DNA of 64,000 nt, taken from assembly GCF_964204865.1 (NCBI RefSeq), contig NC_135258.1:6315001-6379000 (forward strand), read 5' to 3'. Position 1 is the stretch's first letter; each line of letters starts with the position of its first letter. The notes beneath the pieces are model-generated. The model saw nothing but the letters and a program-made list of their open reading frames with translations, searched no databases and was not told the DNA's origin. This DNA is from Styela clava (lineage: Eukaryota > Chordata > Ascidiacea > Stolidobranchia > Styelidae). A program made the translations under genes and the position numbers. Positions 1-61,231 of this stretch are shown here, piece after piece.

Positions 1-3000
1 GTACGGATATCGAAGGGGCTAATTGAAAGTAATACTGCAGTTGGTGAGTTTTCAGTCTTATAGAATGTCGAGTTTGCCATATGGTCTGAGCAATGTGATA
101 TTTCGAATTCCATTTCGATAAGCTATCGATAGGAGGTATAGCGTAATGAATATACAGGGAGTCCTCGGGTTACGACGGTCGCGACTTACGCTGTTTCGAG
201 GTTACGCATTCCATAAAAATAAAAAAGATAATACTGTACTGTAATATCTAAGCCCTTAAACTGGATCATTGTGATCACAAAAATCAGTGCTTTGGGCTCA
301 TTGGTTTTCGTCATATACATCGTAAATGACGTGGACAATACAGTACGATATGAGTACGTACGAGTAATTTATGTACTGTACGGTATAATGTTCCGACTTA
401 CACTGAAATTCGGGTTACACCGATTCTCATGAACGAAACCACGTCGTAAGTTGAGGACTGCCTGTACATAAAAAACATCTTCTCATATCTATAACACTTG
501 GTATATAGAGAGTTCTCTTTGGTTCCCTTTATGCGTAAACACTCATTTGAAGACATTTAACATACCAATCAAATTTTTATTTAAATTGTTCCCGTAAAAA
601 GCTGATTGAAATGTGAATATGTTTTTTGTTCCATGTATATATTATAACTTTATTTTTCACAACTTCGTAACCTACAGAATCAACGTTTATTGTTGTCAAA
701 CTCAATTTCTTTGCAGCTTTTTCATATTGATCTTCTGTTAAGTAAACTTTTCAAAGTCAAGGCATTGAAAAGCGTTCATTTTAATTAATGTTTTAGACAT
801 GAAACAATGTTACATGCGCTCAACTGTATTATAGAAAACATGAATACTTCAAATAGAGCATAGATTCACTTTGGGTAGATTCCTGAGCATGGTGTTTAAA
901 TCGAAATCTCTCTACTATGATAAGGCACCATAGGAAGAACGAACTTTTTTGTCACCAAATTTTGTAGATATTGATTAAAACTAGATTTTTTTTTAATAAT
1001 AACGATTATAAAAGTAAACCAAAACCGACAGATATTACGTGATATCCCATTAAAATTAAATATATAATAGATTCGAATTTCCCATTAAATTCATTTTATT
1101 TTCTATTCAGTCCCCGAAGTGCCTCAAGACGTTGCAATAAGTAATATCACCAGTTCAACAGTAGTCGCAGTCATCACACCTCCAAACAATACTCTAATTG
1201 CTGTCACACAATATATCATAACAGTGAGGTAACATATTATTAAATATTTTAAGTAGAGAAAAGTTTTTCCATTTCACGAGTTAGAGATATCCATTAAGCT
1301 GATTGTATATTACGACTCTTGTCAGCAATAATGTAACGAGAATATCGGTCGGAGACCGAAGACTTATTGATCGAGCGATAATTAATTAATTAATATCTCG
1401 CTAATTATACGACCCAAAATCTATAGGCTTCTGGTCCGTGATATGATGCATGCACATGCAAAATTTGGAGCAGATTCAACCTCGCGTTCGTGAGATAACG
1501 CGTTCATCTAACAGACATACATACAGACAGACAGACAAATACCTATCAATATACCATCTATCGGGCGCTATCAAGAGTACTCTATGAGATGTAGGTCCAG
1601 TAATCGGGGTTACGGCATTGAACGTCACAATACGCCCGAACGATCTTAAGATCGATAGGTAACAATAATGAAAACGCTTAAGTTCCTGACTCAGAAATAA
1701 TGACTTCTTACTCAATTCTTTACCAAATTCTTCTCCAGTTTCGACCCAGGGTAATAAAATACGACTACGACTGCAAAACTTTTCTTCCTAATTCCATGGT
1801 CCCTGCTACCCACACTAAAAAACTGGCATCACATATTGTTAGTATGAAATCATATATTTCAGGTTTCTATATTGATAACTCCCCTCTATATACATATATC
1901 ACTTTGTGAAACATATTTACATTCTTTTTATTAACATAGACAAGATATCGATGACTGCAATTCATTTAATGACGCAAGTTGCCATGAGAACGACCAGCAA
2001 ACATTCGCAGCTACAGCTGACAACAGATACACAATAACTGGCCTACAAGCCTACAGGTAAAGTTTTTTATTAATTACAATGCTATTTTTTACAATATTTG
2101 GTGATAAAATAATAAACAGATATATTTTATGTTGGAATATCCAGGAAAACATAAAATTAAACAACATAGGTTGAAGCTGATTACTGATTTTTAAATGGCG
2201 AAAAGCACAGTGTGACAACAAACGATTAAACTCTGAGCTAATGCTTTAGCCAGTACAGTCATGTGTAAGCATTGCAGCCTTATTCGTAATTTTAAACAAC
2301 ACTAAATAACATAAGGTTATAAATTGATAAAATCTAGTAAATACATGAGATAATAATAATATTCAACATTTCTCATTTTAACATAGAAAATACGTCGTCT
2401 CTGTGGTCGCCGTATCTCTCGGTGGGAGAGGTGAATCAAGTTCGAATTTTACATTTACTACAGCCGCTGGACGTAAGTATCCTGAAGTATATATTCTCTG
2501 AATGTCAATTACATTACCATTTTAATTTTAACATATACTTTTTTACAGGACCAAACCCCATCTTTAATGTAGTGACTGTATCACTACCGGAAGTAATTAT
2601 TGTGACGTTCAATGCCGGAACCCCGATTACTGGACCTACATCTCATGGAGTAATCTTGATAGCGCCCGATGGATCAATTCGGCAAGCGGCGGTTAGTACG
2701 CGCATATATATAATATTTAAATACGCAAATAATTTAGAATATGTTGGAGTTATTTCCGCAAAACAATGTTGTGCGTTTTTTAGATTCAAATATTATATAC
2801 TAAACGTCAAAGTCGGAATCTCTAATGGAAACTAAAAAGACTTATAACCATAGTGTGTTGTGATTTAGACCTAGTGTTGAGTTTTTTTTTTTTATTTGCT
2901 GTATACTTCGCGACGGATAGGAATGTTAACAAATAACGAGTTGGATACTATCTGGAAAGGAAAATTAAATATATAATAAAAAAATATGTTGTTACTGGCT

Positions 3001-6000
3001 TGAAGCATTCTGGCAAGCCCTATGGCTCGTGGCCCCCTTTCGTAAGCATTTTATACTGATGGGCTCGCTGTTTATGATTCCAGTAGTATTTATAGTGTTA
3101 TTTTTATGGATAGATTCCGACTACCATTATGTTAATGCTCAACAGAGTGAAAGTACCCGATAAAATAACCTTAGCGAGCAATGAGCATAGGAAGAACGTT
3201 TTTTTAGTAAAACAAGGCAAGGGCAAGGTAAAATCAGTTTTGTTTCTAGCCTTGTGAACACACATTAACTTATCCCCGAGCCCCCGATTTGGAACTACTG
3301 ATAAATCATATCTGCGTTCAATAAATGCAGAAACATTAAGTCTAAATAAAAATCGTTATTCCAGGTTACAGCATCATTATCATCTTCGATATCTATAACC
3401 GTTCCAAATGTTTCATATAATACTGTTTATAAGCTTCATATTACATCAACCGTAAACGATGTTGGTTCATCTCAATTACCACCAGGAACAACCGTTACAT
3501 CAGGTATGAAATTTACGTGAACATGTATTATATTTTATACAAATTGTTCCACAGATTTGCTTTAAACTAGTATCAGGCAGGACAACAAGCCTAGCTGTAC
3601 GTACATACAAGATGTACTATGTGTTTCGGAGAACGCGAACCTTTTTGCCCCAGTATCGCATATCAAAAATATCATACGTGGATTAGGTGAAGAGTGTGCA
3701 GTTTAATCGCGAATCATTGACACATCAAATAGCTACTTGTGTATTTCTTAGCAATATTGTCAGTAGATACTGGTTTAAATGTAATTTCAAGCTCTTAACA
3801 CCCGTAGAGTAATGAATCTACCGACACCTTACGTCGATAAATCATAGCAAATTTTCATCTCTACCTCAAACCATATTTGCCAAGAATGACGCTGATGCCA
3901 AGGCGCCGTTTAAAATCGCCCCTATAAAATATCAAATAAAATAGTCTAGTAGATACAATTTAAAATTACGAAATTTCAGAAGTTGATATAATTGTCTTAC
4001 AGTACCTTCAAGTCCGTCATTCACCGTGGCACGTGATAGTGACGTTCAGCTTACACTGACAATACAAGCTGATGGAGCAACATCTTACTTGGTTTCATAT
4101 ATACAGGTAATATGACTGTTTTTTACAATATACGTTATGTGCAAGCTTCGTGCATTGTACTGACCAATTGTAGCTTGCTATTGAATTCACGTCCAATTAC
4201 CCAGTAATTGCAAATACTTTGACGATAATACTTTGATTTCATAAATGGTTGAAGATGCAAAAAGCGAATACGAAATCAACTCTTTTTATATATTGCAAAA
4301 AAAGTATTATACTCTACTTTTGAATTTCTCAAAAATACTACAATCATCAAAACTTTGTTGCAGTGCAGTTCATCAAATTCAAATTCAAACTGACAAGTGT
4401 TAAAGCATCTATATCTGTTAATACTATAAATATTATCTAATGTCAAGGATTATAAACTTTTAAAAGCAGAAATTTTACATAATAAATTAGCTTGCTATTT
4501 TTTGTTTTTAAACATTTGAAGTTGATGCCACAGTTATTAATTAAAAGCCTTTTCACAGATTATAAATATTAATATATGTTCATACATTTCAGGCCAATTG
4601 TCCCAACTGCACTGCTCAGACTTTAACGTCTACTGACACAACTGTGGTTCTGAGTGAACTCATAGCATATACAACATACAAGTATGTTAAGTTTTATTGC
4701 TTAGGTTATGAAGCCATAACCAAGTTTGTTACACCTGTTACTATTGACTATTGTATTTATAATTAAAACTTGATTTTAAAAATGTGCAAATGAATGATAT
4801 GCCAATGTGGGAATCATTTTTGTCATATTTTGACTGGTGAAATTTTTTATACAAGGTGAATTAAAAACAGAACCCATAAATTTCTTAATTGTATCTACTA
4901 AAATAAAGAAAATTTACATGACACTGTAGACAAACGTTTTTCCAGTAGTCCTAGTGTGCTTTACGCAAAAGGTATGTTTGTCCAGATTATGTCCAAATGA
5001 CCTGAGTTGTTCTTTTTTGTCACTCTATATTTCAACTTGTCAGACGGATCACAAAAACAAAAGCAAATATGATTGCACCGAGACGTATTACAATTCTCCC
5101 TTTGCATCATAACGTTGGTATTCCATTTAAAACTGAATTTGCTGCTCTCACTACTTCAAATAGAAGATATTTGTTCAATGTACCTGCTTGATTTGCTGCA
5201 ATTCTCCTTTTTACCTCCACAAGGAAATTTTATACCGAACTTTTCACCTAGACCCGCTATCCTGTTGAATCTCTTCCTTGTATTTTGTGTCAACACTTTT
5301 TCAACCTCCAATAATTTATTTCTTCTCTATATTTACAGAATATCTGCATTTGCTGTATCCGCAGCTGGAACCAGTTCAAGAACTACCTTATCACAGCGGA
5401 CAAGAGCAGGAAGTAAGTTTATTTTCTTCGGATAGCGTTGTTACAATGTTTATTTTCTGTGCTATAAAATAATCCAACTCACCCATTTTGTGTGAACATT
5501 TTGAATGCAATACAAATGTGTCTGACAGGAAGCCAAATGCCATTGTAGATGTTAAAACGACTGCTGTTTTTGCATTTGTTTACAAAATTAAAAACTGTCC
5601 GAGAGGAATGATTTTAAACCAATCATATGCTACAGAAGCAGTCAATGACATTGAGTTAAAGAAGTCAAAAAATGCGAAATATTTATATATACATCCATTG
5701 TAGACTTTGCAATGTAAAAACCCCATGCCAGATCAAATATACAAATGTGGAACCTGCCAAATACATGATGAAATATATGTACCCACACATTGCACTTTTT
5801 TTACACTTTCAAGCTCCTACTCTCAGAGATCCAAACTACACAACATCTTTTACAAATACGAGCGATGAAGAGACGTACCCTCCCTATTACACTGTCACAG
5901 TTAACAACGTATGTGAGGAAAAGTCTGTTGTATTTAATGAAGATACTGGAGTAATTACAAAAATGATTTATATAGTTACTCAAAATGGGTCAACAGGTAA

Positions 6001-16192: not shown

Positions 16193-19100
16193 TCAGACCC
16201 CCCCTACAGGCAAATCTAAATTAACTTCTGGTTCAACTCCAACAGGAATAACAACATCCTGTACATCATCATTGGAAATAGCAATATTGTCTGGAAAATC
16301 GGCATTAATATTAGGTAAATTGTCACAATCTTCCATCAAATATAAACGAAGATGATCAACATGAGCTATTCTACAATTACCAGTGTTAACATTCTTGATA
16401 CGATAAACGAAATGTGAAAAACAATCTAACACTTCAAAAGGACCTATCCAACCAGTCGAAAGTTTTCTACTCTTAGGAGGATAAAAATACCACACACGAT
16501 CACCAACATTAATAGATAAAGGCTTAACAGTTGCATTAAAATTACGTTTCTGTCGAACAGCAGATTTACCTAACTGTTCTCTAGCAAATTCAAAAGCTTC
16601 AGATGTAGCATTATTAAACCATTTAACAAATTCATCATAATACTTAGGGACATTATGATCAGGAGGTTTACCAAAAAGTAAATCAGTTCACAAAGAAATT
16701 TCACGGCCTAACATTAAACGATTTGGAGTAAAACCTGTACTTTCATGTACAGTAGTTCTATAAGCCATTGAAAGATAACGAATGTGTTCATCCCAGTCTG
16801 TGCGACTAGAATCCACAAATGCTTTGGGCATTTGCTGCAAAGTCTTATTCATTCTTTCACATAGACCATCCGACCTAGGATGATAAAGAGTCGTATGAGT
16901 TTTATCAATTTCAAATAAGGAACACATATGCTTAAACAAATGAGATTCAAAATTAACCTCTTGGTCACAATGAATAATTCGCGGAGTACCAAATCTACTA
17001 AAAAATTCCGTTACAAGTACATCGGCTGTTGTACTGGCCCTTTGATTAGGCAAAGGATAAGCCGCAACCCATTTAGTAAAATAGTCTGTGACCACTAAAA
17101 GATGTTCATTGCTCCGTTCAGTTTTAGGTAAAGGACCCACAAAATCAAGACTAATTCTGAGAAGTGCCTCAGTACAAATAATTTTACACATTTCTGCACG
17201 ACGTTTTCCATGAGGGGTTTTGGTAGCAGTGCAAGCTTTACAATAACGACACCAAGAGGATACTTGACTGTGCATTCTAGGCCAATAAAATCGTTCCCTC
17301 AATTTTTTATAAGTTCGTTCTTTACCCAAATGTCCACCAGTACGCAACTCATGGAGTTGTCGGTACATTTCGCGACGCAAAACTAAAGACAACACCATTT
17401 GAAAAATGGATTTCCCTACAGGCGCAGATGGCAAAAACTGGCGATGAAGCACTCCATCAATGACTCTCAATAATTTCCACTGGCTGCACAGGATTCGAAC
17501 TTCTCTGGAGAAAAACAAGAGTTCTGCAGCTGGAGTTGGTTGATCCAACGTTTCCTTCATTGTCAGTACTTTAGAGATGTTATCGTCCTTCATCTGCATC
17601 TCACGCATATCGGTCGCTGAATACGAAGCGAGCCATTCCATAGAATTACCATGACTCGGTTGCAAAGCAGCAACTTTGACAGTTTCCAATTCACACGGCT
17701 GATCACCATTCCCACAACTAGTGCAGGAATCACGCTTACATCGGCAACGAATACGACTCAAACCATCAGCATTGCCATGCTTGGAACCAGCACGATGTTC
17801 AACTGTAAAATCGTAAGTGTCCAGAACTGATATCCAACGAGCTACAGGGTCTTCAAAAATTCAGAAGCCAACGTAGTGAAGCATGGTCAGTTCTCAGTTT
17901 GAAATGGCGACCCCACAGAAAATGACGAAAATGTTTGACCCCCCACTACAACGCAAAAAGTTCTCGATACGTTGCACAATATCTCTTCTGTGCCTTGTTA
18001 AGGATAACGCTGGCATATGCAATGACTTTTTCCTCGCCATTCTGAATTTGACTTAAAACTGCGCCAGCTCCAAAACCAGAACAATCAGTATCTAATATGA
18101 ATTCGTCTCCATCTTCCTGTGGAAATGATAAAACAGGAGCACGAACTAAAAGTTCTTTCAAGCGAAGAAAAGCGACATCACACTGCTTTGTCCAAGCAAA
18201 TTCTACTTTCTTTTTCGTCAGATGAACAAGAGGATGTGCAATGGTAATGAAATCTTCAACAAATTGTCTGTAATAACTACAAAATCCAAGAAATGACGGC
18301 AATTCCTTGACATTAACAGGCTTGGGCCAATCACGAACAGCAGCAATTTTTCCATCGCTACAGCTTACACCATATTCAGATATTACATGTCCCAAATTTT
18401 CCACTTTACGACGAAAAAGTTTACACTTCTCCGGCTTGAATTTAATTCCATCAGCACGAATTCTTACAAAAACTTCACGTAAGCTGCTCATGGCCAGATC
18501 AAAGTTTTCGCCATAAGACAAAATATCATCTAAAAATGCGAGACATATCCTCCATAGAATTCCAGCCAAAACTTTGTCTATTAAACGCTGGAAGCAAGAT
18601 GGCGCATTGGCTAATCCGAAAGCGAGAACACGAAATTGAAAATGGTTATTCCCTGGCAAGCTGAATGCTGTTTTTTCCCGATCTTCTGGGTCGAGTTCTA
18701 CTTGCCAGTACCCACTCGCCAAGATGAAAACCACTTTGCTTTACCCAAGGCATCCAAAATATCATCAATTCTTGGCAAACTGTAGGCATCTTTGATGGTT
18801 ACCAGATTCATTTTACGGAAATCGATACAAAAACGACAACTTCCGTCTTTCGTGGGAACGAGAACAATAGGCGAATTATAGGGACTTTCACTCGTTTCTA
18901 TTACACCTTGATCAAGGATGCTCTGCACTTGTTTCTCTGCTTCTTTCGCCCATCCCATACGTCGCGGTGGAACTTTGATTGGTTCAGATGTTGACGTTTT
19001 AATTTTATGTTTGACTACAGAAGTTTGTCCCAGTTTGCCATCAGGACCAGCAAAAACATCCTGAAATTCGACGAGCAAATCACGAATACCTTGACCTTGT

Positions 19101-19920
19101 TCAACCGTTAAATCTTCTGGATCGTCGACGAGCTTATTTAAATGTACAGGTAGTTCCCTGGTGTCCATGACATCACCAGGCACCACTTGTTCCAGAGAAG
19201 AGACAGTCAGGTTTTCTCTTGGGCATAGTATGCCGATAAGCAAATCCGCAGGTATTTCTACCGCTTCCTTGCTAACATTGACCACCATGAGAGGCACTAG
19301 AGAGCATGAGGCGTCCACCACTCCGGGAAATAAAAATAAACCACGATGGCCATACTCGCTCTCAAAACACACGCAGCCTCTGCCACAGCTATGACGTCAC
19401 TATTGGGTTTCAAACGACCATAAATCACCATCTCACTCCCTCGGGGAACAGTCACACATTTATCTACAACAATTCTACAACTAGGAACAGACGAAACAGG
19501 CTTAGTCAGGGAAACAGTTTTACCATCAACCTCCATTTGACCTACAGACATATGCAAAACACAGTCATGCTCATGGAAATAATCCATACCAAGCAAACCA
19601 CAGGGGGCACCAAGATCAGCAATAATCACTCTCTGAACAGCACACACAGAATCAATACAAATTTTCAAGTCAATCATACCACGAGCTTTCAGAGAAGTAC
19701 CATTAGCAGTTTGAAAACAAACATCACAAGGAGACAAATCACACTCCTTCCCACCAATAGAACAAAGAACTGCATAATCTATAAGCGTGGCAGCACTACC
19801 AGAATCAATAAGAAAACGTACAGTGATGCCATTCACATCAACCATGGCATACCAGCTAGTGGGTAATCTCAAAGAACAAATCAAATTATCAAAATCATGG
19901 CCCATGCATACATTCGTCAT
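16193..19920 (-). pseudogene. Retrotransposon pol: protease, RT, RNase H, integrase (broken frames)
   Basis: Protease lies near 19850 (FLIDSGSAATLID, the aspartic DSG). Reverse transcriptase spans about 18.0-19.1 kb in two frames, with YNSPIVLVPTKDG and FLDD in place of YxDD. RNase H has FILDTDCSGFGAGAVLS near 18090. Integrase at 17761-16688 has the HHCC zinc finger, a first Asp in LDFVGPLPKT, a second Asp in IHCDQEVNF and a Glu in HPRSDGLCERMN. A GPF-type chromatin-end module (GWIGPFEVLD) follows at 16495-16193. Frame breaks occur near 19.3, 18.7, 17.9 and 16.6 kb, so no full polyprotein can be made from this copy. Confidence 0.85.
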
Positions 19921-19949
19921 CTTTCCAGTAGCAACTGAGGACCCCCGTG

Positions 19950-21482
19950 CTACTGATTTCTGTTTGAAGACATATTATTATTCTTGGGAGCAGGGTGAAG
20001 CTGGGGAGTTTGGTCATTCCCACCCCAGGCAGAATTTGAGCTATTCCCTAGTGAGAAATTTCCTACTGAGCCATTGAACGTTGGCTGCGCCGAATACGCA
20101 GTAGAAGGCTGCGAATTCTGTGGAACATAATATCTATCACACTGAGAAGCTATATGACCCCTGCTATTACATCTCTGGCACAAGTTCTCCGGACAATTCC
20201 TACGTAAGTGGCCCTTGGCACCACAACCATAGCAAGAAATACTTTCATTCCTACGCCCACCCTTCTGACGGGAAATTCGGGGTCGACGACTATCGTCTAA
20301 CATAACACGAAATTGGTCAAGTATCTACTTAAAACCATTCGTAGGCTTACTAAATTCAGATTCACACACACCATCATCACGCTCAGATTTATTCACAACA
20401 GCTACCATGGGCTTACTAGCACGATTACAACCAGGTGCACTGTGCGTAGCATCAATAGAATGACATACATCAGCCACAGTAATTAATTCATCCAAACTCT
20501 GAGTCTGCCTGATTGTCAAAGTCTTACACATCTCGAAATCAGGAAAACCTGAAATGAAACGCTCCTTAATCAGATTCTCACGAGCAATAACATCCAAAGA
20601 AGGTTAAGCCTTTCTCGACAATGCACGAAGAGAAGTAGCTTATTCCGTTGGCGTCTCAGTGGCCAACTTCTTCCTGTTATTGAACAAAGTAGCAAAGTAT
20701 GACTCCTTACCCTCTGGATAATACCGCTTTTTCAAGTGATTCACTGCCACACTCAAACTGTGTCTATCTGGAAGGGATAATTCATTCAACAAGGACAAAG
20801 CCTTCTCACGCATACATGCAGCAAAATGAACACCAGCAATTTTATCAGTACATCCATTACAGGTAGTAATGGATGAAAAATGACACAAATAATTATCCAA
20901 AGACATACCATAACCATTAAAAGTATCAGGCTGTATATCCATTCTCAGACTATTATTCATACCAAAAGGAACAGCCTTGCAATCAGTAACGTTACCATTC
21001 ACACTTGCATGCATAAGTGTAGACTGGTCAACCACACACTCATCAGCAAAATTCAATTTTTTAATAGTACCGGTACCATTCATCAAACATTCATTATCAG
21101 GACAGTCTGGTTCCCCATTTCTATCAACACTCTTAGGCCCCTCAGGGGTTTTTAAAATAGGTTTAGGAATGAATGATGGCACCTCACCCTCAGCCATGGC
21201 CTCGCCAATGCCCTCCAGACGGCACAACACCCGTTCAAGTACTTCCTTCATGCCAACATCTCTTTCTTCAAGTTTCGCAACACTAGCATAGACTATTTGC
21301 AGTTGTCTAGCCAGTTTTTTATTTTCAGCTTCTAGTACTTTATTCTTATCTTCAATTTCTTTGTTTGCCATTAGTATTTCTTTATTTGTGTTTTCAATTT
21401 CTTTGTTTTTGGTTCCCATCTGGGCGATTTTAACCCATATTACATCTCGTCCCTGGTCGCAATTCTTTCTTCGGTGTGACAT
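19950..21482 (-). pseudogene. Retrotransposon gag with two CCHC zinc knuckles (broken frames)
   Basis: The N-terminal frame (21482-20640) has a Lys/Glu-rich coiled coil. A capsid-like segment follows at 20597-20325, and the nucleocapsid frame at 20303-19950 carries CYGCGAKGHLRRNC and CQRCNSRGHIASQC. A TAA near 20608 and a further break near 20320 separate the segments. In an intact element these would form the particle protein and RNA-binding tail. Confidence 0.8.
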
Positions 21483-21803
21483 CAGGAACTTTTAATCAAA
21501 AAATTGTCGATTTTCCAATTCTGGCGCTAGCTCGTCAATTTGCAACGGTACGACTTAACCGGAATACCGGTAGGTGCTCGCCATTGATACAGTCTAGTAA
21601 TACTGTAATAATTAGTTCAGAAGATCCAATGTGCTGCAAAGACACACAAATAGGTTCGAAGTTCACGATGCAAACGAAGAGACTAGTGTAAAATAGTGTA
21701 AAATCCACGCTTAAAGCAGATAAAATAAGAGCGACAAAATACGGTCCTTACCCAGCGACAGCCGAAGCAAAGAAAGAGGCTGACCATATGCAGTGGTGGT
21801 TGG

Positions 21804-60821: not shown

Positions 60822-61231
60822 AACACGAGAATATCGGTTGGAAACCGAAGACTTATCGATCGATAGTTAGGGGATCCCCCAAAACAGAAACTGCAGTTTC
60901 GATTCATCCGCTCTTGTAACTTGCGCACTGCTCATCGCACACACACACTCGGCGGGTTTCAAAATTCTCTCGCTTTACAAAAATCTAGATCACTATATCA
61001 ATAATTGATTGATAACTCGCTAATTATACGACATAATTCGCCCAAAATCAATAGGATTCTGGGCCGAGATAAGATGAATGCACATGCAAAATCTGGAGCA
61101 GATTCAATCTCGCTTTCGTGAGATATCGCGTGCATCTAACAGACACACAGACAGACAGACAGACATACATACATACAGACAAATACCTATCAATATACTT
61201 ACCGATCTTAAGATCGATAAGTAATAAGGTC
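60822..61231 (+). mobile_element. GACA-ending repeat element, copy F
   Basis: This is the longest copy: ACGAGAATATCGGTTGGAAA, GGGGATCCCCCAAAACAG, TAACTCGCTAATTATACGAC, the GACA run, and the end GATCTTAAGATCGATAAGTA. It lies in the 5' intron of the styelin-type gene. Confidence 0.7.

Follow-up and report, generated by a model that had tools for sequence, protein, structure and literature searches.

Introduction

In worms, inserts made by polymerase theta average about 10 bp; the largest share (37–44%) derives from sequence very near the deletion and some come from distant sites (PMC5068794). Insertions by MMBIR are inverted copies of a nearby template with microhomology at their flanks, and they have been searched for within 100 bp (PMC8421209), and class 2 templated sequence insertions show a microdeletion, microhomology and added bases (PMC5110952). 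Atypical secondary structure has been reported at template-switch sites (PMC7954356), and hairpins can originate by template switching, a single mutation making long complementary arms (PMC8794818). Helitrons capture genes, and in filler-DNA capture a repeat takes up a piece of a host gene where it is presumed to have broken internally (PMC6544945).

Here we describe a gene of Styela clava in which a piece of an exon is present as an inverted copy inside the terminal hairpin of a short repeat, in an intron of the same gene. Three other paralogs have no repeat at the matching place, and the same scar is found in both this gene and its tandem paralog. It is a clean example of a mutation of a known kind, most likely the result of faulty repair, and not a new system.

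The locus resembles each of the systems above in part. As in polymerase theta inserts (PMC5068794), a small deletion is filled with templated, possibly composite DNA, and the one difference common to both known copies could be a copying error; unlike those inserts, 77 bp were taken from ~1 kb away, against an average of ~10 bp. It shares with MMBIR templated insertions (PMC8421209) a short inverted copy of nearby sequence with the template kept, but the template lies 965 nt off and not within 100 bp, the distance used by MMBSearch, and the left microhomology is not clean. For polymerase theta and MMBIR alike, an insert of 77 bases copied over 965 bases is large and its template remote, and either pathway, or another, may be responsible. 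Class 2 templated insertion polymorphisms likewise patch a presumed break with genomic sequence and show no target duplication of their own, whereas their donor is a distant region and ours is the same gene (PMC5110952). Filler-DNA capture by Helitrons (PMC6544945) is similar in the gain of a gene piece inside a repeat; it differs in that no onward transposition of the loaded repeat was found here among at least seven matching genome places. Finally, single mutations making long complementary arms are known from PMC8794818, but the cases treated there are RNA-gene stems of 2–10 pairs, whereas here a 965-nt loop holds two exons.

Results and discussion

Host gene and intronic repeat

The window, the whole stretch of 64,000 nucleotides that was analysed (C10:6315001-6379000), carries at 1111-4106 the exons predicted for a gene that encodes a fibronectin type III domain, their limits set by splice consensus and frame (Table 1). 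The joined exon translation matched Pfam fn3 in one stretch. The repeat sits in the intron that separates exon 1111-1228 from exon 1940-2056. Its borders are marked by TAAC at 1334-1337 and 1660-1663 or, alternatively, by the 8-base CAATAATG at 1326-1333 and 1663-1670, with TAA on both sides. In three paralogs (L010, L011 and L012) both flanks of the repeat align, and the repeat itself is absent at the matching place. The repeat-free site reads AGCAATAATGAAAACGG in L012 and has a longer form in L010 and L011. Because of this longer form, a duplication of TAAC fits the paralog sites as well as one of CAATAATG does, and the 8-base target duplication was dropped as the sole reading. Helentron/DINE-1/HINE repeats would have flanking Ts and no such duplication.

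Table 1 Features of the fibronectin-III gene and its intronic repeat (window positions).
Feature	Positions	Strand	Basis
Predicted exon upstream of the repeat-bearing intron	1111..1228	+	With next exons joined, Pfam fn3 E 2.1e-12
Short non-coding repeat, intronic	1334..1663	+	Absent in L010, L011 and L012; related copies elsewhere in the window
Whole 87-base insert replacing TTACC of the repeat's terminal hairpin	1555..1641	.	8 full-length tails and alignment
Inverted exon copy	1556..1632	-	73/77 matches, pair I16
9-base end piece	1633..1641	+	With the following GATC, 11/13 to exon (+) CGCCCGATGGATC
Rest of the terminal palindrome of the repeat, 3' side (GATCTTAAGATCGATAGGTAA)	1642..1662	.	Tail comparison with other copies
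Predicted exon, in the loop between the arms	1940..2056	+	Splice consensus and frame
Predicted exon, in the loop between the arms	2387..2472	+	Splice consensus and frame
Source exon, predicted	2549..2691	+	Splice sites and frame only
Template segment of the inverted copy, within the source exon	2598..2674	+	0/77 differences from the tandem paralog's exon

An AGAC-type microsatellite occurs in the repeat, together with short inverted repeats towards its ends (subterminal candidates read by eye: ACTTATCGATC for the head and GATCGATAAGT for the 3' end) and a palindrome near the 3' end, the last as in Helentron/DINE-1/HINE elements. All three features are reminiscent of DINE-1/HINE (PMC4067079), and the assignment to this class is tentative. 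In two paralogous copies, at C10:6229897 and 6277793, the repeat head is doubled in tandem.

The tail of the repeat is a palindrome with a variable middle (GATCTTAAGATC, GATCTAAAGATC, GATTAAAATC and others). As DNA, the intact hairpin of the copy at 61175-61224 folds with -6.3 kcal/mol (z -4.32). A similarity search of 263 kb, that is the window plus 199 kb upstream, gave eight full tails, with TTACC in seven and TTATC in one; two of them (ends 6230248 and 6278167) are paralogous to each other. Split tails occurred only in the interrupted pair, full tails found by similarity being unbroken almost by construction. One copy (C10:6359130) had the head and core and no recognisable tail. Hairpins may have broken in other copies as well, this one for example, which is compatible with the tail search.

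An inverted exon copy in the hairpin

In the window copy, TTACC of the hairpin is replaced by 87 bases, made up of one base (C), the 77-base exon copy and nine bases reading CGCCCGAAC. The 77 bases, on the minus strand, are an inverted copy of exon bases 2598-2674 and form with them an inverted pair that is 95% complementary and 965 nt apart. The copied sequence comes wholly from inside one predicted exon, and the template is identifiable and still in place. Judged against the eight full tails of other copies, five bases are missing. The preliminary description had given 71 of 75 matches for 1558-1632 and had described the flanking blocks as nearly adjacent in other copies of the repeat. The count is exact, since all four mismatches (1559, 1577, 1583 and 1612) fall in that span, and only five bases separate the blocks in the full-length tails. 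With the 75-mer as query, the best non-self match in the genome had an E of 2.7e-27, far beyond chance.

Inverted pairs <5 kb apart were listed by blastn over the same 263 kb (thresholds E <= 1e-4, length >= 35 and identity >= 70%). Only the fragment–exon pair and its twin in the paralog exceeded 90% identity, the others reaching 70.7–88.3%, in a listing that is not exhaustive and misses two repeat-versus-repeat pairs of the window (I24, 92%, and I25, 93%). Ten of the other listed pairs came from one tandem array.

The tandem paralog and the genome search

A search of the genome for further copies of the fragment covered 376.6 Mb in 379 contigs, counts for repeats being lower bounds. The 75-mer matched at least seven places: two fragments, their two exons and three paralog exons, the latter matching at 83–85% and having no fragment beside them. 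The second fragment and its exon are found 42 kb upstream (C10:6274631 and 6275676), in a tandem paralog that is 96.2% identical over 4742 aligned positions. There too the fragment lies within the repeat, its inner junctions are those of the window copy, and it matches the paralog's own exon at 76/77 positions.

Inverted local copies are a known form of assembly artefact, and a chimeric or fold-back read could in principle produce one. At this locus such an origin is extremely improbable: the structure occurs at two places 42 kb apart, with identical inner junctions and with private changes. We reject a one-off assembly error because the tandem paralog carries this arrangement too.

The two source exons are identical over the 77 bases of the segment; over 74 positions, the three further paralogs show 9, 9 and 10 differences. 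Fragment and exon differ at one position in the paralog copy and at four in the window copy, one of them in common. The common difference is a G at 1577, where both exons have a T (reverse complement); the three remaining changes are private to the window fragment. Since the inner junctions are the same, one difference is common and three window changes are private, a single insertion event is indicated. As read from the sequences, the fragment would most simply have been inserted before the tandem duplication, with three later changes in the window copy. Alternatively, gene conversion between the paralogs could be the source of the second copy.

The preliminary description offered two origins for the fragment, capture of an exon piece by a mobile element and repair that copied the exon. 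For the first, the repeat, or a rolling-circle or DNA-transposon helper, would have acquired the exon piece while transposing and afterwards landed or moved in the gene. The resemblance of its 3' palindrome, AGAC-type microsatellite and short near-end inverted repeats to DINE-1/HINE speaks for this, as does gene capture by Helitrons (PMC6544945). All seven candidate matches were scored, and the 75-mer was found in no repeat copy beyond the tandem pair; among the at least seven places there was no dispersed repeat of the kind expected of Helitron or Pack-type capture. Further, it would be highly coincidental for the repeat to land by chance 1 kb away from the source exon, and the insert is internal, contrary to end bypass. 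Mobile capture is thus unsupported and very improbable, whereas copying of the exon by repair fits and is the best-supported origin.

Junctions and the proposed repair event

The left junction shows GATCCATCGGG on its exon side (reverse complement), and GATC occurs twice in the palindrome of the window copy. The junction itself, TATAC-C-ATCCATC, has no clean microhomology: the G of GATC is missing, as is most of TTACC. In reverse complement, the exon edge is GATCCATCGGGCG; in the window copy of the repeat, TTAA is flanked by GATC on each side. GATC is thus present in both the exon edge and the repeat, the right end matching at 11/13 (modest) and the left end imperfectly. With GATC fixed and 20000 trials each, an 11/13 match at the right end had a chance of 0.00505 under the window base composition and of 0.0106 with the 9-mer shuffled; it is a modest match, sought after the sequence had been seen, and its GATC belongs to the repeat anyway. 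The 7-base end match alone is weak, with a chance of about 0.05.

An inverted copy 965 nt from a template that was kept, a loss of five bases and a palindromic site argue for local templated synthesis, in repair or at stalled replication. We consider it probable that templated repair from the nearby exon made the inverted copy inside the hairpin of the repeat. The short non-coding repeat would first have inserted into the intron of the fibronectin-III gene. Later, most simply before the tandem duplication, DNA synthesis would have failed, or a double-strand break occurred, in the palindromic 3' hairpin. A free 3' end may then have paired near GATC in the exon ~1 kb downstream and copied 77 bases, whereupon the copied end would have been released and rejoined to the repeat, leaving an inverted exon copy in place of five hairpin bases. 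The other broken end, before it was joined, probably copied ~9 bases of the same exon edge; on this reading both ends would have been primed at the same exon GATC. Such an event would belong to the class of templated insertion, also called ‘filler DNA’ or template switching. Since then, the fragment appears to have drifted about as fast as intron sequence. We infer from the sequences the repeat-first order, the hairpin break, the priming at GATC, the two-ended copying, the involvement of a polymerase and the timing before the duplication.

The patch could also have been RNA: a transcript of the gene itself, perhaps nascent at the locus, would have been reverse transcribed to fill the break, as in a class 2 insertion. 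The copied bases all belong to predicted exon 2549-2691, so mature mRNA could be the source, and class 2 insertions are marked by a microdeletion, microhomology and added bases (PMC5110952). Because the copied stretch does not extend beyond one exon, DNA and RNA templates are indistinguishable in it. The copy is, however, without an exon–exon junction, and with the donor in the same gene 1 kb off, a nearby DNA template explains it without a further assumption. We therefore hold an RNA patch to be unlikely.

The predicted pre-mRNA helix

The self-complementary exon–intron pair noticed in the preliminary description is real and stable in predicted folding. In the predicted fold of 1500-2720, the helix is part of both the minimum-energy and the centroid structure. 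The predicted duplex energy is -141.3 kcal/mol for the window and -152.2 kcal/mol for the paralog, against a mean of -29.7 kcal/mol (sd 4.7) for 300 shuffles of the window fragment. Exons 1940-2056 and 2387-2472 would lie in the loop of the helix, and about half of exon 2549-2691 would be paired. By one mutation, a long predicted exon–intron duplex has arisen, with a twin in the tandem paralog and sister genes without it, a tidy natural case. The twin copy and the scar-free sister genes make it a ready-made test of the effects of such a scar on splicing and RNA editing.

Effects of the modelled helix on splicing, editing or circular RNA are possible. In a stronger form, selection would keep the pair, the intron copy pairing with the exon and controlling one of these processes in both paralogs. 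Besides the stability of the duplex and its presence in both predicted structures, two of the three private window changes are C to T opposite an exon G, so that a G-U pair stays, and the source segment is identical between the paralogs. The divergence between window and paralog, gaps left out, points the other way: the fragment differs at 3/77 positions (3.9%) and the introns at 61/2156 (2.8%), though 77 bases give little power to detect selection. The rest of the repeat differs at 2/248 and all six exons at 29/710. The three other paralogs looked at have no partner for the exon. Nor is the identity of the source segment special, as exon 1940-2056 is also unchanged (0/117) and 17 of the 29 exon changes fall in one other exon; selection on the segment was rejected as a reading of its 0/77 changes. 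Because the fragment has diverged at about the pace of the introns, no function is indicated, and we regard a pair kept by selection as highly improbable. Only slightly less so is a model in which, regardless of whether selection has yet had time to act visibly, the repair scar is now a working part of the gene in both paralogs, its pairing triggering editing or exclusion of the fibronectin-III exon while scar-free paralogs would be spliced plainly.

The exon with the 17 changes is 3365-3503 (17/139 bases, the other five exons together differing at 12/571). In the translations read, 9 of its 46 residues differ from the tandem paralog, and its terminal residues GTTVTS are identical across all five genes compared. 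Going by these sequences, this stretch of the protein may be evolving fast or recombining.

Surroundings of the locus

At about C10 6125.3-6133.0 kb there is a tandem array together with an inverted stretch ~4–5 kb on, with offset steps near 175 bases. Upstream of the window, at about -9394 to -905, a block of ~1.2 kb occurs three times, ~3.6–3.7 kb apart, and each of these copies matches C10:6271043-6272220. In the window itself, open frames at 16193-21491 on the minus strand resemble, by eye, the gag-pol of a Gypsy-type retroelement.
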